Assembly (NCBI GenBank): GCA_017656425.1
Contig: JACDNV010000032.1
Coordinates: forward strand, 1 to 10,543
DNA length: 10,543 nucleotides
Direction: 5' to 3'
Origin: Candidatus Neomarinimicrobiota bacterium
Lineage (GTDB): Bacteria; Fidelibacterota; UBA2242; B5-G15
Made by a program: the position numbers and the translations under genes. Below, piece by piece: positions 895 through 10,482 of the stretch; position 1 is the first letter of the stretch; every line of letters begins with the position of its first letter. The notes below the pieces were generated by a model. It did not search any database. It was given only the letters and a program-made list of their open reading frames with translations, and was not told the DNA's origin.

Positions 895-1863
895 TCACCT
901 ATCATATTGAGTTTCATAAGTAATTTTTCCATCATCATTTATTGTAAACACAATATTGCCTTTCCAACGCGTAGACCATACATGTTCAGAATACCCTCTA
1001 TACTTATTAGAAGCATCCGCTTCAGGTTTTTTACCAACAGAAACTATTGTATAGGTAGGAAACATTAGTTTAACTGCTAGTTGATAATATCCACTATCTC
1101 TTCCATGATGAGCAGCCTTTAATATATCAATGTTTTTCAATTCATCTTCATAATTTTCAACCAGGTATTCCCATGTTTCTTTTTCTGCATCACCTGGCAA
1201 TAATATTTTTCGTCCCCTGTGTTTTATTAGTAATACATAGCTCATTTTGTTAGGATTACTTTCGCTACCTTCCTTCAGTTGATCATTGGGTGCTAAGATT
1301 TGAATTCCGTCCTCCTTGTAGTACTGTGCTTGATAGCCCTCTTCAGGGCGTACAATTATTACTCCTTCAATTTCCCGCTCATCGGTGTCTCTAAACTTTT
1401 TATATAGTTCCCAATCTCTCTTTTGAGGCTCTGATAGTTTATCTAAATCGGGTTCGTATTCGTTTTTTATTATCCATATATTTGTAAAGCCAATTTGCTT
1501 GTGAAGATCGTAGAGTCCTGATAAATGGTCCATATGTGGGTGAGTAGAAATAAATCTAAATATATTGGTTATACCCTTACTATATAGGTATTCAAGTGGA
1601 TCCTGAAGTCTTATATTATATCCAACGCTTTCAAGCATAGATGGTGTAATTTTTGTTCCTAACAATAACGTTGATCTAGCCGATAGAGAATAAGATAAAG
1701 GTATGGATAAAGATGTAGATATGGATTCATAAATTTCCCTAGCAGATTCTTCATCCATCTCAGGTGTACGATTTATATCAATCATGGCAACTCTTGAATT
1801 ATCGATAAATTCTATAATACAACAATCGCCATGTCCTACATTTAAAAAATGGATTCTAAGCAT
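895..1863 (-). CDS. ComEC/Rec2-like metallo-beta-lactamase-fold hydrolase (soluble)
   Basis: This 322-residue protein has the markers of the ComEC/Rec2-type branch of the metallo-beta-lactamase fold: an N-terminal strand with LNVGHGD (7-13), the metal-binding HPHMDH (108-113), LLPGDAE with D225, and AAHHGRDSG (250-258). All expected metal ligands seem present, so it should be an active metal-dependent hydrolase. Some relatives cut nucleic acid or phosphodiesters; the substrate here is unknown. There are no membrane helices or signal peptide, so it is not full-length ComEC and is probably cytosolic. Residues 47-68 form a Ser-rich stretch between the first strands and the metal motif. The ATG at 1863 follows an AGGAGG (1874-1879) by 10 bases. 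It begins 38 bp after the methyltransferase stop with no obvious terminator between, so it probably belongs to the same operon. It is coupled to the downstream membrane protein gene. Confidence 0.85.
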   Translation of the reverse strand: MLRIHFLNVGHGDCCIIEFIDNSRVAMIDINRTPEMDEESAREIYESISTSLSIPLSYSLSARSTLLLGTKITPSMLESVGYNIRLQDPLEYLYSKGITNIFRFISTHPHMDHLSGLYDLHKQIGFTNIWIIKNEYEPDLDKLSEPQKRDWELYKKFRDTDEREIEGVIIVRPEEGYQAQYYKEDGIQILAPNDQLKEGSESNPNKMSYVLLIKHRGRKILLPGDAEKETWEYLVENYEDELKNIDILKAAHHGRDSGYYQLAVKLMFPTYTIVSVGKKPEADASNKYRGYSEHVWSTRWKGNIVFTINDDGKITYETQYDR

Positions 1864-1901
1864 TACGCTTTTTCCTCCTAATTAGCTTTTTAGATACTCC
1901 T

Positions 1902-4900
1902 TTACACACTCCTTGCCTTTTCCAATCTATTTTTTACTAATTCAGCTACTGCCCAATAGACCTCTTTCCTTTCCTTTTCGGTTAGACCGAGGGCGTCAAA
2001 AATGATGTCGTCAAGGGCTTTTCGGTCAGGCAAAGGATTGGGTTCCTGTTCACGGATGGGTTTGTTTGGATCAAAGCCAAGTTCTTCTATAACGCCTTTT
2101 TGCTTAAGAATTAAAAAATCTTTAAATCTATTTAGTGATATTTTGAGATTGTCGATTATTTTAAAAAGTCCAATATCATATCGCGAAAACTTAAGTGCCC
2201 CTCCACCTAAATTTGTAATACCTAATAGTTCACTTTGAAGAATTCCAAAGGTTGAATTTAACTGAAAAACTATCGGAATAATTTTCTCTTCATGAAGTGG
2301 TATTATTTTGTAAAATTCTTTACCTAATGCTTTTGCACTGTTCCAGATAATCAATTGAACATTTCCTAATGTTCTGGGGAACCATATTGGAGATATAATT
2401 CGAGATTTCTTAGACTTTTTAACTCCATACATGATTATCTTTTCAGAGTGAATATCTAATAAAATACATTCCAAATCTCGAACAGATTTTATAAATCTAA
2501 CTTTTGGGTACTTGTCGCCTGTATTATTATCATGAATATAGCCTTCAATTTTTGCAACATCCCCAAGTCTTACCAGTTTCCCTTTTCCTTTTTCCAGAAT
2601 CTTAAAGTAAATCTCAGGTGCTCTGAGGTAATTTCCACCCCATTTGTTGCCAATGTATGGAAGATGTTCTAAATCACTTTTTATCAATTCATCTTTTTCT
2701 GGCACCTCAACGCCTTCTTCCAGCAGTTCCTTTTTTGGCTTAGGATAAAATCTGAAGTCTTCATCATCAAATATGGGTTTATCAGCTCTTTCAATTTTTT
2801 TAATAACTTCTGCATTCAGCACCTCTTCAAAAGGTTTTTTAAAGGCAACGAATTTTAGGGTAAAATCATCAAGTTTTTCAGCCGGTCTTCTGATTAAAAC
2901 AATCACTGTATTTACATCTGCTTGCTTAAAGGAGCGTTTTTTAAGATTATCAATGATAAAAAGAGGCTCCATACTCTTAAGCAAAAATTCCTGAAGTCCT
3001 ACACCATAGCCAACATCAAGCCAGGAATTGGAATTGATAAAACAAAACACTCCACCAGGACGCAAAAGCGATAATCCTTGATAGTAAAAGTAAACATAAA
3101 GATCGCTTTTTTTATCAATTTTTACATTATTTCCCCATACATTTTTTACTGATTGAATGAGTTTTTCTTTGTATTGTTTTTTAATCTCTCTCCACTTGTC
3201 ATCGCTATAGTTGTCTTGATTTTCAAGAGGTGGTGCAATAAGTTCCTGCCGCACATAAGGGGGATTTCCAATAACGATGTCAAAACCTCCTTTTTGAGAG
3301 AAGACCTCAATGAAGTCCAGTTCCCAAAGGAAGTAATTCTTCCGGGTTTTATTACCAATGTTGTTTATGAGCTTGTTGTATTTGTCCAGGTTTATTTTTT
3401 GCTGTCCAAGTTCCTGCTCAAGTTGTTTAACTTGCTTTTTTAAATCCGGACTTTTCTCTCCAAAAAGATTTTTTTGAGATTTTTGTTGTCTAATCCTTTG
3501 TTCTAACCTTTTTATGTTTCCATTTACTTCATCAATTTTGAACTCAACAATCTCTTTAAAAATTTCCTGTTCAAACTTTTCGATATCCTTTGCCTCTCTT
3601 AAATCAGCGCTTCTACCCCCTGAAAAGAAACTTGATTTCCTATCAATCAACTCGTTTATCTTAACCCTGATTGATGGAGGAACACTGAGCATTTCGTCTT
3701 TAAGATTTATACTAACATCGGCTATCTCCTGAACAAGAGAGTCTCCTTGACGAATCTTGAAGGAGAGATTTGGCAAAAGTGGTTTTGTGTAAAGGTCCAT
3801 ATACTTTTCTTCTGTTTCTATAATTAAAGAAAGCCATAGTCTTAACTCACCCACCATTACAGCCCAATCCTTCACATCAACGCCGTATAGATTTTCAAGT
3901 ATAATTCTCTCCTTTAATGCAAACAGATTTTCGCCTATATCTGTAAGACGCTCTGTCAATTCTGAATGGAGTTCTACAAGAATATTCAACATTCCAACGA
4001 GAAAAGATGCAGACCCAACCGCCGGGTCAACAATTTTGACTCTATCGAGCTTATCTTTTATAATTCGTAGTTCTTCACTGGGTAGTTCAATGTTCTTATT
4101 ATGGGGTTCAAACACAAAGTCAATAATTTTTTCCTTCGATATGCTTTCCTCAGAGGCAAGATAATTTACAAGGGATAGTCTGCACATAAAGTCGATTTCA
4201 ACCCTTGGTGTATAAAAGATTCCAGCATTCCCTCTTTCTTCCTCAGCGATCAGAGATTCATAAACTCTTCCAAGCATTTCAGGGTCAACAGCAACTTCAA
4301 CATCGATCGGGCTTGACTCATCAATGGTGAAATTAAAGATCTCAAGAAACCCCTTTCGTTTGTCTTTATCATCAGGTTCGAAAAACCACTCAAAAACATT
4401 ATCGGGTAAATCAAATCCAAGTTCATCAAGCTCAGTTCGTGAGAAAAGTCCACCATTCAAGAAAGGCATAAGGTTAAAAGATTCCTTTATTTCTTCGGGC
4501 AGTCCTCCGTAAATAAGATGCGATTTTCTATTGAACGCACCGAAAAAAAGGCTTGATAACCACCGTGAATAAAAAACGTCTTCTGATCTGGTGCTTTCCT
4601 TCCAATCCTTGTATTTAAACCAGAGGTTTCTTATGTAATTTTTATCCTGAACATAATTTTTCCACTTAAACCATTTTTTTCTTTGCAGAAAATATATAAA
4701 CAAGATCCGTGATAGTAACTGCTGAGCAAAGGAATGCTTTTTCTCATACAGCGCATCATATTTTGAGAGGGACTTAATAATAACCTCTTTAAGGGCATAC
4801 TTATAAGCGTCAAAAAACTCTTCAGTTACCTTCTCAACCGAAAATGCCTCGATAATTCTATCAAGCGAAGAAAAATCGGCATCTCTTAAAGCCTGCTTAA

Positions 4901-5330
4901 AAGTCTTATTTGTCAATTCAGGGCTAACATAGTACGTATACCTCTTGTAATAACTAAATTTACTCTTGGTACCCTGAGATACACTATAAACAAGAGAAAA
5001 TCGAAAGTTTCTCGCATCGTCGTAAAAGACAAAAATTCCTGCATTTATGAAAGAATCTTTGATAATCCTTTTAGCAAATTCATATTGTCTCTTTTTACTG
5101 CTTCTTTCTGTCAGCTCTCCGGCGGTCTTGATTGCAAAGACCCATAAGTTTTTTGCATCTTTGAGTTTCAGCTCCCCGATTTTGTATATCTCCTCAAAGG
5201 CGTCCTCTTCATAACCGTAAAGCCTTTCCGGAGGTGAATAAATCATAAAATCCGGGTTTTTACTTCTTAAGAAGTCTTCAAGATTTCCAAGCGAAAACTC
5301 CTGCGCAAGTTTTTCTACTATTTCCTGCAT
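1902..5330 (-). CDS. Eco57I-class N6-adenine DNA methyltransferase (restriction-modification-like)
   Basis: The protein transfers a methyl group from S-adenosylmethionine to adenine N6 at a specific DNA site. Numbering here is from a TTG at 5366 (1154 residues); from the preferred ATG at 5330 it is 1142 residues, so subtract 12. Visible parts: an N-terminal region (1-200) with QYEFAKRII and FRFSLVY; a helical region; FYTP (384-387, motif X); DPAVGSASF (447-455, SAM-binding motif I); a long charged coiled coil (about 565-670) inserted between the two halves of the catalytic domain; catalytic NPPY (701-704, motif IV); a target-recognition-like region (about 930-1080, beginning LVRLGDVAKIEGY); and a C-terminal helical tail. 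I see no clear PD-(D/E)xK nuclease in the N-terminus, so cutting is probably left to the partner helicase. The ATG at 5330 is preferred because it has an AAGGGGA site 7 bases upstream and sits 4 bp after the helicase stop. The TTG would overlap the helicase by 32 bp. Confidence 0.9.
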   Translation of the reverse strand: MQEIVEKLAQEFSLGNLEDFLRSKNPDFMIYSPPERLYGYEEDAFEEIYKIGELKLKDAKNLWVFAIKTAGELTERSSKKRQYEFAKRIIKDSFINAGIFVFYDDARNFRFSLVYSVSQGTKSKFSYYKRYTYYVSPELTNKTFKQALRDADFSSLDRIIEAFSVEKVTEEFFDAYKYALKEVIIKSLSKYDALYEKKHSFAQQLLSRILFIYFLQRKKWFKWKNYVQDKNYIRNLWFKYKDWKESTRSEDVFYSRWLSSLFFGAFNRKSHLIYGGLPEEIKESFNLMPFLNGGLFSRTELDELGFDLPDNVFEWFFEPDDKDKRKGFLEIFNFTIDESSPIDVEVAVDPEMLGRVYESLIAEEERGNAGIFYTPRVEIDFMCRLSLVNYLASEESISKEKIIDFVFEPHNKNIELPSEELRIIKDKLDRVKIVDPAVGSASFLVGMLNILVELHSELTERLTDIGENLFALKERIILENLYGVDVKDWAVMVGELRLWLSLIIETEEKYMDLYTKPLLPNLSFKIRQGDSLVQEIADVSINLKDEMLSVPPSIRVKINELIDRKSSFFSGGRSADLREAKDIEKFEQEIFKEIVEFKIDEVNGNIKRLEQRIRQQKSQKNLFGEKSPDLKKQVKQLEQELGQQKINLDKYNKLINNIGNKTRKNYFLWELDFIEVFSQKGGFDIVIGNPPYVRQELIAPPLENQDNYSDDKWREIKKQYKEKLIQSVKNVWGNNVKIDKKSDLYVYFYYQGLSLLRPGGVFCFINSNSWLDVGYGVGLQEFLLKSMEPLFIIDNLKKRSFKQADVNTVIVLIRRPAEKLDDFTLKFVAFKKPFEEVLNAEVIKKIERADKPIFDDEDFRFYPKPKKELLEEGVEVPEKDELIKSDLEHLPYIGNKWGGNYLRAPEIYFKILEKGKGKLVRLGDVAKIEGYIHDNNTGDKYPKVRFIKSVRDLECILLDIHSEKIIMYGVKKSKKSRIISPIWFPRTLGNVQLIIWNSAKALGKEFYKIIPLHEEKIIPIVFQLNSTFGILQSELLGITNLGGGALKFSRYDIGLFKIIDNLKISLNRFKDFLILKQKGVIEELGFDPNKPIREQEPNPLPDRKALDDIIFDALGLTEKERKEVYWAVAELVKNRLEKARSV

Positions 5331-5334
5331 TTTG

Positions 5335-8300
5335 CTATCCCCTTGAGGCCTGATTTTCGACCGCAATTATCACTTCCTCATTAATTTCTTTTAAATATTC
5401 CCCTATCTTTTTGAGAAAGTTTTCTCCAATCTCATTTTTGAGGGCTTCAAGTTCTTCTTTCAGCTCTTGTGTGTTCTTCTTTCCCCACCCGGTAATTCTC
5501 GAAAGTACATAATCGGAAAGCGTACCAAAGGACCTTACGTCCTCAAGCAGATCCGAGATAAAACTTTTATAGGGAGTAATATCTTTGTCATCCCGCTCAA
5601 GAAGCCCATTAAGGATGTTGTAAGCTTGCGTCGATAGATCTCTTCCCCTTGATTTTCTTCTGAAATAGGATTCTTTTCTCAGTACTTCATGATAGTTAGT
5701 CCAGAAATTATCGCTCAGAGGCAGTCTGGGCTCATTATAAGATGTCTTTATCTTTTCGTATGCCTGTTCAAAGCCAACAGATACTGGCTGTTTCTCGCTG
5801 TAATTTTTATACCCAACAAAGAGGTCTTTTCCCTTTTTCACGAATACAAGTAGTTCGTTTTCTTCCCCTCTCTTGGCAACTTTTACTCTCACTGGCATAT
5901 CTTTGATTTCTTCCTCTATCTCTGGAAACCTTTCCTTTATCTTCTCATACTCCCGTTTCAATTTCGTAAAGAAACTTTCTTCTTCCTCTTCTGTGTATGT
6001 TGTTAATCTTCTGTAGAGCTCTGCTGGTTGGGGCTCTTCATCCGGGGTGAAAATTTTTGCATCTTCACCAAGCACATTGTGAATCATAAACATCTTGGTT
6101 TGAGCTATCTCTCTTGATTTAACGATGTCTGCTCCTTTCTCTGTTGGGAAAAAGTTCACAATGAAGATCTCATCATACAGCTTTTTACCAATCCGGTTAA
6201 TTCTTCCTACTCTCTGGATTACCCTGACAGGGTTCCACGGAATATCGTAATTCACAACAACTCCAGCTCTATTGAGGTTAAATCCTTCTGAAAGTTTATC
6301 TGTGGCAAGGAGAATCTTATAAGAATCTTCCTGATGTTTGTACTGAGCGTCGAAGTTTTTATATATATCCTTCACTGTCTTTTTACTCAGAGAACCGAAG
6401 GCCGGGAGGACCATCCCTTCAAATTCCCTACTCAGGATATCCTTTAAATGGGTGGCAGTGTCAAAATATTCCGTAAAGATGACCACTTTTCTATCTTCTT
6501 TTAGAAACTCTCTTATTCCTTCAACCAGACGCTCCGCTTTCGGATCATTTTGAACCAGCCCAATTTTTTCAATTGTGTTTAAAAGGCTTTCAAAAAGCTT
6601 TAAATCGCTTTTTATATCTCTTTTAAATTGTTCTTCACCCTTGAATTTCCTTATATCGTATACTTTGTAGTACCTGGGGTCAAGCTTTTCTTCTCTCAGA
6701 TCTTTTTCGTATCTCTCCAATCGTTCATTGATAACCTCAGGGTCTTCTGAGACAATCTCATCCATTAATCTTCTGTCAAGTATGAACTTGTTTGTCTTCT
6801 TTATAAAAGTTAAAGCCGACCTGTGAATCTTTATAAAGCGTTCCACACTTTCTTTGAATGCTCCAAAACTACTTTCAAATCTTTTTACCAGTAACCTTCT
6901 CATGAAATCATAGAGGTTCTTTTGATATAAGTAAATAAAGCTTTCTTCCTCATTGAGCTCAGGTTCTTCAGGATCCCCCAGATAATCGAATACCCCTTTT
7001 TCGTACCTTATCGGGAAATAGATAGCGCCTTTAAACCTGCCCCCATCTTCAAGCTGAGAAAAAGATTTTATTACCTCATCATAGAATTCTAACTGCTTTT
7101 CTGTCAGTTCAAAGAACCATTCGCTTGGGTCTTTAACCTCCGGGAGATCTATTTTCTCTTTATAGTGTCTGAGGTCAAGCCTGTTTCTCCTTATCACAAC
7201 AGGTTCAAGTATAGCCCTGATTTCGCGAGCGAGTCCTCTTGTTCTCCCCTTAACTTTGCTCATGTTAATCGATGACTCACCGAAAACATCTCTATAGTAT
7301 CTTATCGCTCTGTTTCTTCTCTTTTCAACGAGTGAGTTGTGGTAGTTTCTTATGTAAGAAAGTTTCCTGAATTCGGCCTCATACCGGGAGAACCTTTCTT
7401 CCAGATTCTCATCAAGCACAATAGTTGACTTCCTGGGGACAGTAAAGAGCTTTAAGAGAGCATAAAGATCTGATGGTCGGTTGTTAAATGGAGTTGCAGT
7501 AAGTAGTAAAACTATTTTGCCCCTGCATATTTCATTTAGGTAGTGGTAGCTCTGCGTTCTTTCATTTCTGAATCTATGCGCCTCATCAACAATTATAATT
7601 TCTATATCCTCGCTTTCCCTGACAAACTCTAAAGTGCTTTCAAGTTTCCCAACAGAACGAACCTCCCAATCATAGAGCTTGAAGTCTGATAGATATTTCT
7701 TCCAGCCCGATGTGCGGTTTTCATCTCCTATAAGATGGGGAGGACAGATTACAATTCCTCTTTTACCAAGGGCTTTTGCCACAAGACAGGCTATCACTGT
7801 CTTACCAAGTCCAACAACATCTGCAATTAATGTGCCTCCATGCGCTTCGCAGTTTGCGAGAGCTTGAGAAACTGCTTCAAGCTGATATGTATAAGGTATA
7901 TAACCTTTTGCTTTCATGAGTCTCTTTAGCTCTTCGCCTAAGTCCTTTCCCTTGTGTAGTTCAAGATAGGTTTTAAGGAGATACGCATAAGCTGTAAAAG
8001 GTGCAATCTCTCTAATCAGACTATTTTTTGTAAGAATACTGATTATTTTATCAATGTCCTCTTTGCTAAAAGCAATAGCTCTATTCCAGAGTCTGTCGAA
8101 GTACTTCTCTGCTTCTCTGAATCCAAAATCCATTATCTCGACATTGAATTCATCCTGAGATTCAAGCCCTGCCTTCGTAAGATTACTACTACCTGTAATA
8201 AATAGAGACGGGATTATCTGTTTAAACGACTCATTCATTTTAAAAAGGTAAAGTTTTGCGTGATTGGGTTCTCTGGTTTTTCTAAGAACAAGCTTCCCCT

Positions 8301-8673
8301 CTTTAAGAAGTTGTATAAAGAATTCTATCTGTTCGTAGGTTTCCTTGCGGTCGAGCTCCTCAGAGTTAAAGGCGATTTCAAGCGACCTGTAGAAGTCCTT
8401 TTTAAGCTTGTTTCCACTGTAAATTCTTTGTTTCCTGGCTGACTCGTAAATGCCGTACGCAGATTTATCAATATTAAGACCAACAAGTATTTTGAGATGT
8501 TCTTCTTTTAGAGCTTCGCTCTCGTAAAGAGTCTTTAGAGTTTCGTATAACTCCCTAATTCCAGAGAAGTAAAAAAACCCAACTAAAAATTTGAGCTCAT
8601 TGCTGTTGATAATAAGTGTTTGGAGGCGTTTTTTTAAAGACTTTTCCCCGCTGTTGGTGATGAACGTACCCAT
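5335..8673 (-). CDS. PLD-nuclease/SNF2-type superfamily 2 helicase fusion protein
   Basis: This 1112-residue protein is a probable DNA translocase with its own nuclease domain. Residues 1-200 form a phospholipase D-like domain with one HKD-type motif: H138-A-K140, then GSSNLTKAG (161-169) and E175. PLD nucleases such as BfiI use a pair of these motifs, so dimerisation is likely. The helicase core follows: Walker A in ADVVGLGKT (284-292), DEAH (363-366), TATPF (392-396), a long insertion (about 410-700), and the C-terminal lobe with VIFTEY (731-736), ATDKLSEGFNL (790-800) and QRVGRINRIG (820-829). The tail (about 880-1112) is charged and helical. Walker A reads DVVG where relatives often have DEVG; the catalytic Lys is intact. 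The ATG at 8673 follows a moderate AAAGGGA site. It is the first gene of a probable operon with the methyltransferase and may be the cleavage arm of the system. Confidence 0.9.
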   Translation of the reverse strand: MGTFITNSGEKSLKKRLQTLIINSNELKFLVGFFYFSGIRELYETLKTLYESEALKEEHLKILVGLNIDKSAYGIYESARKQRIYSGNKLKKDFYRSLEIAFNSEELDRKETYEQIEFFIQLLKEGKLVLRKTREPNHAKLYLFKMNESFKQIIPSLFITGSSNLTKAGLESQDEFNVEIMDFGFREAEKYFDRLWNRAIAFSKEDIDKIISILTKNSLIREIAPFTAYAYLLKTYLELHKGKDLGEELKRLMKAKGYIPYTYQLEAVSQALANCEAHGGTLIADVVGLGKTVIACLVAKALGKRGIVICPPHLIGDENRTSGWKKYLSDFKLYDWEVRSVGKLESTLEFVRESEDIEIIIVDEAHRFRNERTQSYHYLNEICRGKIVLLLTATPFNNRPSDLYALLKLFTVPRKSTIVLDENLEERFSRYEAEFRKLSYIRNYHNSLVEKRRNRAIRYYRDVFGESSINMSKVKGRTRGLAREIRAILEPVVIRRNRLDLRHYKEKIDLPEVKDPSEWFFELTEKQLEFYDEVIKSFSQLEDGGRFKGAIYFPIRYEKGVFDYLGDPEEPELNEEESFIYLYQKNLYDFMRRLLVKRFESSFGAFKESVERFIKIHRSALTFIKKTNKFILDRRLMDEIVSEDPEVINERLERYEKDLREEKLDPRYYKVYDIRKFKGEEQFKRDIKSDLKLFESLLNTIEKIGLVQNDPKAERLVEGIREFLKEDRKVVIFTEYFDTATHLKDILSREFEGMVLPAFGSLSKKTVKDIYKNFDAQYKHQEDSYKILLATDKLSEGFNLNRAGVVVNYDIPWNPVRVIQRVGRINRIGKKLYDEIFIVNFFPTEKGADIVKSREIAQTKMFMIHNVLGEDAKIFTPDEEPQPAELYRRLTTYTEEEEESFFTKLKREYEKIKERFPEIEEEIKDMPVRVKVAKRGEENELLVFVKKGKDLFVGYKNYSEKQPVSVGFEQAYEKIKTSYNEPRLPLSDNFWTNYHEVLRKESYFRRKSRGRDLSTQAYNILNGLLERDDKDITPYKSFISDLLEDVRSFGTLSDYVLSRITGWGKKNTQELKEELEALKNEIGENFLKKIGEYLKEINEEVIIAVENQASRG
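5338..5344 (-). promoter_or_regulatory. Ribosome binding site deciding the methyltransferase start
   Basis: AAGGGGA lies inside the last codons of the helicase gene, 7 bases before the ATG at 5330. The helicase stop TAG (5337-5335) falls between the site and the start. This geometry favours translational coupling, in which ribosomes finishing the helicase can start the methyltransferase. It also argues against the TTG start at 5366. Confidence 0.7.
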
Positions 8674-8837: not shown

Positions 8838-8888
8838 CCTGAAAACTAAAAATCAAGCTATTTTAGTGACGTTAGCAATGCAATAGAA

Positions 8889-8925
8889 TTCTGTTGAAAT
8901 TAGTAAGCATAGATAAAGGTACCCC
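8889..8925. repeat. IS terminal inverted repeat, transposase 3' end
   Basis: The outer arm TTCTGTTGAAATT is at 8889-8901 and the inner arm AAAGGTACCCC is at 8915-8925. Both are exact reverse complements of the arms at the other end. The transposase's apparent original stop codon (8900-8902) overlaps the outer arm. Confidence 0.85.
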
Positions 8926-8980
8926 TATTTAGTTCTACTTTTTGAGTTGGTTTTGCAAAAACTTCTCTATATACATTCAC

Positions 8981-8991
8981 TCCCTAAAGGA
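8981..8991. repeat. Short palindromic insert, type B, copy 1
   Basis: TCCCTAAAGGA forms a 3-4 bp stem with an A-rich loop and supplies the in-frame TAG (8986-8984) in the transposase relic. It is the most divergent member of the TCCC-(N)AAA-GGGA set shared with 9100-9111 and 9335-9345. Confidence 0.45.
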
Positions 8992-9045
8992 ATAGAAGCA
9001 TAATTTTATCCACCTGTTTTTCATCTATCCAAGCTGGATATCGCC

Positions 9046-9066
9046 TCTCAATAGAGATCCTTCGGA
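9046..9066. repeat. Short palindromic insert, type A, copy 1
   Basis: A 21-bp unit carries two adjacent mini-palindromes: TCTC-n-GAGA and TCC-TTC-GGA (9058-9066). It matches the units at 9213 and 9295 at nearly every position. In the transposase relic it sits in frame between REFL and RRYPAW-like sequence, as if 21 bp (7 codons) had been added. Confidence 0.7.
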
Positions 9067-9099
9067 TTAGAAATTCACGTAAATGTTTGAAAAACCCTT

Positions 9100-9111
9100 T
9101 CCCGAAAGGGA
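9100..9111. repeat. Short palindromic insert, type B, copy 2
   Basis: TCCCGAAAGGGA is a perfect 4-bp stem with a GAAA loop on the plus strand. An overlapping 6-bp stem pairs CCCTTT (9095-9100) with AAAGGG (9105-9110). It encodes the foreign-looking RVPFGK segment exactly where the catalytic Glu region of the transposase is expected. Confidence 0.6.
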
Positions 9112-9212
9112 CTCTACGAGCCGCCATATTAACGGTTCTTAATCTCTGTCTATACTCGAAAGGGAAATCATAGTAATGGAAGAGATTTTCTTCATGTAAA
9201 GCAAATGTTTTA

Positions 9213-9233
9213 TCTCAAAAAAGATCCTTCGGA
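9213..9233. repeat. Short palindromic insert, type A, copy 2
   Basis: This 21-bp unit has the same TCC-TTC-GGA core (9225-9233) and TCTCAA start as its two sister copies, with an A-run in the middle. Read on the minus strand it introduces the TGA stop (9217-9215). Removing 21 bp would rejoin VPSI to DKTFALHEENLF. Confidence 0.7.
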
Positions 9234-9294
9234 CTTATGGATGGTACCGTCTTTACCCATTTCTTCAAGAACTCAAAATATTTATCATAACACT

Positions 9295-9315
9295 TCTCAA
9301 GAGAGATCCTTCGGA
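9295..9315. repeat. Short palindromic insert, type A, copy 3
   Basis: This is the most regular type A copy: TCTC-AA-GAGA followed directly by the TCC-TTC-GGA core (9307-9315). Removing 21 bp would rejoin AYDLD to KCYDKYFEFLKKW in the same frame. Confidence 0.7.
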
Positions 9316-9334
9316 CATCCAGATCATAAGCATT

Positions 9335-9345
9335 TCCCAAAGGGA
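9335..9345. repeat. Short palindromic insert, type B, copy 3
   Basis: TCCC-AAA-GGGA lies beside the point where the transposase frame breaks (stop at 9351-9349). To restore the frame the added DNA must be 2 more than a multiple of 3, for example 17 or 20 bp. It shares its core with the copy at 9100-9111. Confidence 0.6.
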
Positions 9346-10232
9346 GTCTTAGACGAAAATTTCCCAAAACTGGTTATAGAAACAATCTTTAATCTTAGGT
9401 GGTAGATGAGAGACCTGTTTCATCAATGTCTGAGATAGATGCCAGAGGCAGTATTGAAAGTTAGAACCGGGATAAACAAATTTTCCTGCTTCTGGAAGGC
9501 CTCTAGCTCCATCTCCTACTATTATCTTTACTTTCTCCAGTCCTCGCTTCTTTAAGCGGCTTAGTAATACTCCATAACTATTAAATGATTCCTTCTCAGC
9601 TAATTCCCAATCCAATAGATGAATCTTACCCTCTCTATCAACACCAAGAGCTACCAGTATAACTCCCTTTTTCTTCTTTATCCTGATATGACCCCAGATA
9701 CCATCCAGAATCAGACCTTCAATGTCAGAAAAAAGCGGACTATTTCGTATCTTATCTATCTCCTCCTCAACAACCTTTATAAACCTGCAAAAAGTAGCAT
9801 AACTGACCACTTCCTTTAACCTTGATCTAAACCAAACTGTTATCTTACGAGTACTCATGTTTAGAGTATGAGCAAGAATAACATCGTTAATGAAATCAGT
9901 TGCGTAGTGAACATATTTGTCTATGAATAAGCGCACCTCCTTACCCCTCTCTCGCATCCTCGGTATCCTTACATTGGCTAAGATACCCAGGGGAGTTATA
10001 ATGTATTTCCTGATTGTATAACCCCATCTCTTTATCCTGGAAGACCTCTGATAGGGTCTATTACCTATGATTTTATCCCTCTGAACAATCAGTTCTTTTT
10101 CTAAAGATTCCTTCAGAATTTCAATTAATTTTGGTTTAACTATAGAAAATACTTGCATAATGAAATGACTTAATGTTAGATTTTCTTTTAGAAATTTAGG
10201 GTTCATGGGTACCTCCTTTCAATAGTTGATTG

Positions 10233-10271
10233 GGGGTACCTTTCTTATTTTTATTCAAAATTTCAACAGAA
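10233..10271. repeat. IS terminal inverted repeat, transposase 5' end
   Basis: The outer arm is at 10259-10271 and the inner arm GGGGTACCTTT is at 10233-10243; both are exact complements of the arms at 8889-8925. A further GGTACC lies between the inner arm and the transposase start, within the ribosome site region. Confidence 0.85.
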
Positions 10272-10293
10272 AATTTAACAGACCCATGCCCAC

Positions 10294-10333
10294 TGTCGTT
10301 GCGAGCGTAGTAAAACGAAGCGAAGCAATCTCA
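10294..10333 (+). repeat. Dispersed palindromic repeat (TTGCGAG...GCAATCT type), copy 1
   Basis: The unit begins TGTCGTTGCGAGCG and ends CGAAGCAATCTCA. GTTGC and GCAAT at the two ends can pair (one G-U), forming a hairpin. The same termini recur at 10483-10520 in the same orientation. Repeats with these ends are common between genes in many bacterial genomes. The type A inserts in the transposase relic share a CGAAG..ATCTC portion with this unit when read on the opposite strand. Confidence 0.65.
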
Positions 10334-10342
10334 TCTGATTGG

Positions 10343-10446
10343 GATGGCGAGATGGCTAAATAGCTAGGTGGCTAGATGGCGAGATGGCAAAATGGCTGGA
10401 TAGCTATCAAGCTATCAAGCTAACAGGCTAACAAGCTAACCAGCTA
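10343..10446. repeat. Degenerate short-period tandem repeat tract
   Basis: About 100 bp are built from drifting 8-10 bp units: first GATGGCGA/GATGGCTA-like units, then AGCTATCA twice, then AGCTAACA-like units. The unit sequence changes gradually along the tract. No open frame or conserved unit length suggests coding, and repeat length and spacing do not fit a CRISPR array. It lies between the two dispersed palindromic repeats. Confidence 0.6.
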
Positions 10447-10471
10447 AAGAAGTAACTTGGTGTAACTTCTT
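10447..10471. repeat. Inverted repeat / possible hairpin
   Basis: AAGAAGT (10447-10453) pairs with ACTTCTT (10465-10471) across an 11-base loop. The loop region also carries a direct repeat of GTAACTT (10452-10458 and 10462-10468). No T-run follows, so I do not call it a terminator. Confidence 0.4.
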
Positions 10472-10482
10472 CGGTGGCCCCC

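Follow-up and report, generated by a model that had tools for sequence, protein, structure and literature searches.

Palindromic units in a transposase gene

Near one end of the DNA analysed here (the window: 10,543 nucleotides, contig C32 of a 2.8-Mb, 50-contig genome) is a transposase gene with several short palindromes crowded into its last part. Do these segments belong to the gene or were they inserted into it, and if inserted, by what route? We conclude that they are probably copies of very small non-autonomous mobile elements of 20-22 bp, each made of two abutting micro-palindromes. This confidence covers the mobile-element statement and not the route.

The gene occupies 8984-10206 on the minus strand. 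Its open reading frame at 9349-10206 encodes a Mutator/IS256-type transposase (PF00872, E=4e-29), and the stretch around it (8875-10286, minus strand) aligns by blastn with a homologous IS copy on contig C15. We found five units in the gene, all on the minus strand. Three belong to one family (family A, 21 bp): TCC-GAA-GGA/TCTC-TATT-GAGA at 9046-9066 (34.3 bits with the covariance model described below), TCC-GAA-GGA/TCTT-TTTT-GAGA, with one changed base, at 9213-9233, and TCC-GAA-GGA/TCTC-TCTT-GAGA at 9295-9315 (34.1 bits). The others are unit D, CTC-GTA-GAG/TCCC-TTTC-GGGA (21 bp), at 9100-9120, and unit E, GTC-TAA-GAC/TCCC-TTT-GGGA (20 bp, 20.5 bits), at 9335-9354. The first-pass annotation had reported six micro-palindromes in this region. 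Its three TCC-TTC-GGA copies are the family A units; two of its three TCCC-(N)AAA-GGGA copies lie in units D and E, and the third did not hold up. The motifs it took as cores are present, but the units are longer, with two abutting palindromes of 9 and 11-12 bp. The sixth palindrome, at 8980-8990 (TCCCTAAAGGA), was rejected as an insert and is native sequence; the copies on C15 and C12 carry CCTTAAGGGA there.

Three of the five units are cleanly missing from other copies in the same genome. The unit at 9046-9066 is missing from both the C15 and C12 copies, that at 9100-9120 is missing from C15 and present in the C12 and C1 copies, and that at 9213-9233 is present in C15 and missing from C12. 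In blastn alignments with the C15 and C12 copies the units appear as clean 21-bp gaps with no target base duplicated or lost, and the alignment that the first-pass annotation had proposed thus gave the exact edges of the inserts. For the units at 9295-9315 and 9335-9354 we saw no empty copy, as the C15 copy has both and is identical to the window there. We counted them as inserts because they match the covariance model and their removal rejoins the frame.

The unit at 9335-9354 runs past position 9345, where the region had been taken to end, and is the source of a frameshift and of the in-frame TAA that terminates the raw open frame. Its edge is the only unit sequence in the 858-bp open frame (9349-10206), so the claim that the first 860 bp of the gene are free of inserts is almost correct. 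Excising the five units extended the frame from 289 to 376 codons. The C15 copy, minus its three units, is open for 404 codons. Because that copy, treated alike, reads through, the native TAG at 8984-8986 that ends the window gene is an ordinary substitution, and the inserts therefore do not account for all of the stops once ascribed to them.

Divergence between the window and C15 copies is mosaic: approximately 480 bp are identical and elsewhere the copies differ by more than 10%. This pattern suggests that IS copies have recombined recently. Two units, at 9295 and 9335, lie inside the 100%-identical tract and were therefore probably spread by recombination.

Other features of the window were also noted. 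Positions 895-8673 hold a defence-like cluster (a type IIG/DrmMI-like methylase, an HKD+Snf2/DrmD-like helicase and an MBL-fold protein, PDC-M48B), and a related methylase and helicase pair is found at C5:22000-31000. There, at C5:26438-26671 (L132 ~4439-4672), an 812-aa methylase-like ORF contains an in-frame RAYT-like Y1 transposase domain with a PNHVH motif. Repeated TGI(P/S)AC peptides flank this domain, and the arrangement looks like a RAYT element that inserted with the reading frame kept intact. Positions 10323-10435 and 10445-10475 of the window hold an imperfect short tandem repeat (gatggctagatggcgag...) and a hairpin beside 'cattgcgagcg...gcaatct' intergenic repeats.

Several sequence families share one structure

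Nearly all units fit the consensus NYC-(G/T)(A/T)A-GRN followed by TCYC-T(2-4 nt)-GRGA. The first palindrome (9 bp) has a 3-bp stem and a 3-nt loop, and the second (11-12 bp) a 4-bp stem and a loop of 3-5 nt. Five families were found in the genome: TCC-GAA-GGA/TCTC-TTTT-GAGA (family A, 21 bp), TCC-GTA-GGA/TCCC-TATTC-GGGA (22 bp), TTC-GAA-GAA/TCCC-TTC-GGGA (20 bp), and the families of unit D (21 bp) and unit E (20 bp). At 49 unique sites the units were 20 bp (16 sites), 21 bp (16), 22 bp (16) or 23 bp (one).

The families share this structure with compensatory changes. Among 37 distinct units from this genome and its relatives, 99.2% of cells were paired, and 33 cells in 3 of the 7 pairs had changed on both sides, in an alignment that was fitted to the model and so leans towards structure. 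Pairing was far lower in a sliding-partner control, which destroyed the signal. Pair 1 occurs as UA, AU, CG and GC, and these four types are visible directly in the sequences. The predicted folding energy of the double hairpin was weak and no better than that of shuffled sequences. Structure alone cannot identify units, because the count of bare 3-3-3/4-4-4 double hairpins barely exceeded that in shuffles. In duplex DNA the symmetry of the unit could equally be a protein-binding feature.

Units are dispersed and concentrated in IS genes

We found that the units occur in excess elsewhere in the genome, as the first-pass annotation had anticipated, and mostly in IS genes. The motif TCCGAAGGATCTCTNTTGAGA was present at 23 places genome-wide with three or fewer mismatches; its reversed control was present at none. 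In approximately 390 kb of stretches, the most dispersed 14-mers, besides A/T-rich ones, all came from units. Regular expressions matched 61 units in these stretches and none in three Markov shuffles, although the stretches had been picked partly around matches and a few of the 61 were counted twice through alternative loop lengths. The covariance model gave 73 matches in the whole genome at E<=0.062 and 96 at E<=10. From these searches and stretches, 89 units were examined and reduced to the 49 unique sites. This count leaves out C26:19902 and three matches on C10 and C12 (TCCGAAGGAGTTCTATCGAAC) that belong to a longer intergenic repeat. That repeat (C10:82852, C10:84182 and C12:2866) contains TCC-GAA-GGA/GTTC-TATC-GAAC, a 9+12 layout in a larger hairpin context.

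By our own reading of the hits, approximately 36 of the 49 sites are in IS genes (IS256 types, ISL3, an rve-type element and IS110-like), with up to nine units in one IS copy. Five are in a tyrosine-recombinase-like relic on C18, and the remainder are in spacers or host genes. Excision of units restored frames from 289 to 404, from 333 to 415 and from 112 to 342 codons. One host gene with a unit encodes a response regulator: the unit at C1:100008 adds 7 residues to the frame (216 vs 209 codons), and solved receiver domains have a gap there. A second candidate, in an S46 peptidase (C2:140033), reads in frame, but its alignment to solved relatives is too gappy for a proven insertion.

Deletion joints, too, coincide with units in direct repeat. 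The rve-type element has derivatives on C8 (48311-48336) and C6 (48310-48366) whose joint is one unit; C13 has two copies of this unit, at 6669 and 7446, a distance of 777 bp. These MITE-like derivatives suggest recombination between the two direct-repeat units.

Insertion is precise and follows a target rule

Each insertion is of a single unit, which may point either way with respect to the gene. A script that joined the flanks found empty sites in other copies, again with no duplication or loss of target bases. Two of these empty sites are 100% identical to the filled copy over 120 bp (C15:49456 vs C23, and C2:59489 vs C3). In one case a family C unit has inserted into a family B unit (TCCG^TAGG); un-nested B copies are present on C3, C15 and C23. 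The nested insertion and the empty sites with identical flanks show that the units have spread recently, in line with the active spreading of very short palindromes first suggested for this gene.

We found that insertion is immediately 5' of N-A-R-G. At 35 of the 49 unique sites there is both an A at +2 and a G at +4, against a background of 5.5% (p~2e-33). Taken singly, +2 is A at 40/49 and +4 is G at 42/49. Insertion is usually after T-R, with T at -2 in 29/49. The nested insertion obeys the rule too. On the complementary strand this corresponds to insertion 3' of CYTN. The 3' tetranucleotide is already in the empty site and varies; it is GTAG at 1/49 sites. No guide tetranucleotide, of the kind that accompanies the subterminal hairpins of TnpA-moved IS200/IS605 elements, was found outside the hairpins.

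Related units add seven residues to host enzymes

Among 60 relatives, repeated units were confined to another family (f4) of the same order. Units there differ in sequence (for example ATC-GAA-GAT/TCCC-TTCT-GGGA) and keep the architecture, and the same target rule holds at 17 of 25 sites. A search of 245 genomes of the phylum at E<=0.01 gave one match outside the order, about the chance level; this range is a lower bound, as the covariance model was built from the units of our genome. The exact family A pattern had one chance-level match in the genomes of other species, a collection that may omit near relatives, and three unit patterns had no match in viral contigs.

Host genes carry mostly 21-bp (7-codon) units in frame. 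In one relative, G008, such units lie in acetyl-CoA synthetase (AcsA) and, by our own reading of the sequences, in an acylase-like protein, a sensor protein and others. The AcsA insert, which encodes IEDSLLG, is common to G008 and G022 and absent from G020 (same genus), G016, G021, G003 and G010. The closest solved AcsA has a gap of exactly seven residues at this position. A second dense cluster, of four 20-21-bp units in approximately 450 bp, was noted in G008 (contig C254, L192).

The double-hairpin unit, the NARG rule, the structure common to both supposed families, the insertions in host genes and the related genera all go beyond what the first-pass annotation had described.

Possible routes of spread

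Our best guess, held tentatively, is a single-strand route of the HUH type. An enzyme acting in trans would recognise the unit when it is folded as a single strand and join a copy of it to a single-stranded target at the short motif; transposon genes and spacers would tolerate the inserts. The CYTN rule appears to follow the logic of HUH (Y1) single-strand transposases. In IS200/IS605 elements a conserved target tetranucleotide flanks the left end (PMC6006769), and the units likewise insert beside a short fixed motif on one side without target duplication. Against this route, no mobilising enzyme was found, and the thermodynamic weakness of the hairpins does not favour it either. The single Y1_Tnp domain of the genome is the one inside the methylase frame, on a contig (C5) without units, and one relative (G011) has a unit-like match and no Y1_Tnp match. 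Y1_Tnp counts are slightly higher in unit-bearing relatives (p=0.048), a weak difference confounded by assembly quality.

Spread through RNA, which we consider unlikely, would account for the lack of target duplication and for a structure better conserved than the sequence; an RNA route was proposed for the elements of Allomyces since these lack flanking duplications (PMC2800124). However, the genome, which is 99.66% complete, has no reverse transcriptase domain (PF00078, RVT_1), and units point both ways with respect to the gene.

Somewhat less likely still is that the units are REP elements moved by a RAYT transposase. REP and REPIN sequences are short palindromes spread in bacterial genomes with RAYT, and a tetranucleotide matters to them (PMC3116915, PMC3733652, PMC6006769). 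The units are likewise short, palindromic and dispersed, with a tetranucleotide that matters, and the Y1_Tnp domain in the genome has an HVH motif, with more such domains in several unit-bearing relatives. In contrast to REP sequences, the units have shorter stems and two different abutting hairpins, are mostly in genes, and contain no GTAG/CGTC tag, the varying 3' tetranucleotide belonging to the empty site. We found no RAYT gene flanked by the repeat: the sole RAYT-like domain has no units nearby and no covariance-model match on its contig. The missing tag rules out canonical REP membership; a non-canonical RAYT may be at work.

It is improbable that a host defence deliberately disrupts transposons with these units. 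The preponderance of IS genes and the many units in single copies would fit such a defence, but tolerance alone predicts the IS bias, insertions are nested, and units are also found in intergenic DNA, in the response regulator and in metabolic enzymes of relatives.

We give even less credence to the inserts being cut out of the mRNA or bypassed during translation, leaving the transposases functional. Inserts in Magnusiomyces mitochondria are a precedent. Once units are excised, the frames are long and show few further lesions, and dN/dS between insert-bearing copies is 0.12-0.37. This divergence is, however, probably older than the inserts or homogenised by recombination, and we rejected dN/dS below 1 as evidence for splicing or bypass, as the window and C15 copies share a 100%-identical tract with the units at 9295 and 9335. 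Both orientations of the unit also occur, there are many deletion derivatives among the carriers, and the host-gene inserts of relatives, which add seven codons in frame, do not have to be removed. Finally, short stems are common by chance, but native palindromes, chance or an assembly artefact, true only of the 8980-8990 stretch, are refuted for the unit family as a whole by exact presence and absence, identical 20-22-mers repeated in unrelated flanks, the target rule and recurrence in independently assembled relatives.

Relation to known elements and significance

The units, as mobile elements, are among the smallest known in DNA. Their closest kin are the small dispersed repeats (SDR) of Nostoc punctiforme, which Elhai and colleagues in 2008 reportedly found to be 21-27 nt, dispersed, nested and judged mobile, with some families said to share secondary structure despite different sequence. 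The units are similar in size, in unrelated flanks at 49 unique sites, and in nesting and recent mobility. Unlike the Nostoc repeats, they are in a host that is not a cyanobacterium as far as the evidence goes, have one architecture (9+12) and one target rule over several families and genera, and insert in frame in host enzymes. Precise insertion at a fixed motif is also known for SDR5 of Nostoc (PMC4390886). In the mitochondrial DNA of Allomyces, double-hairpin elements are described, in the account cited in PMC2800124 (Paquin et al. 2000), in genes and spacers without target duplication; the units resemble these fungal mitochondrial elements in these respects. Palindromic elements of Rickettsia also insert in frame in protein-coding genes (PMC10969869), but are approximately 150 bp and end in CGTC, an end that the 20-22-bp units lack. 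MITEs of DDE transposons have terminal inverted repeats and a target-site duplication; no such duplication was present in our empty and filled pairs.

Very small mobile repeats, mitochondrial double-hairpin elements and in-frame palindromic elements in Rickettsia are thus already known; what is new is the combination of a two-hairpin superfamily with a target motif conserved between genera. The units may constitute a class of their own among DNA parasites, close to the minimum size for mobility, a proposition that we put forward at a little under even chances: a two-hairpin single strand of 20-22 nt with its own dedicated enzyme and an NARG target, which has spread through one bacterial order and has added seven residues to working enzymes again and again. 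Our results suggest that mobile elements of approximately 20 bp are more than a cyanobacterial oddity. What moves such tiny elements is a directly testable question, because filled and empty copies in one genome, a sharp target motif and a covarying structure are all at hand. The in-frame insertions of seven residues in conserved enzymes are a source of change in proteins that annotation would miss.
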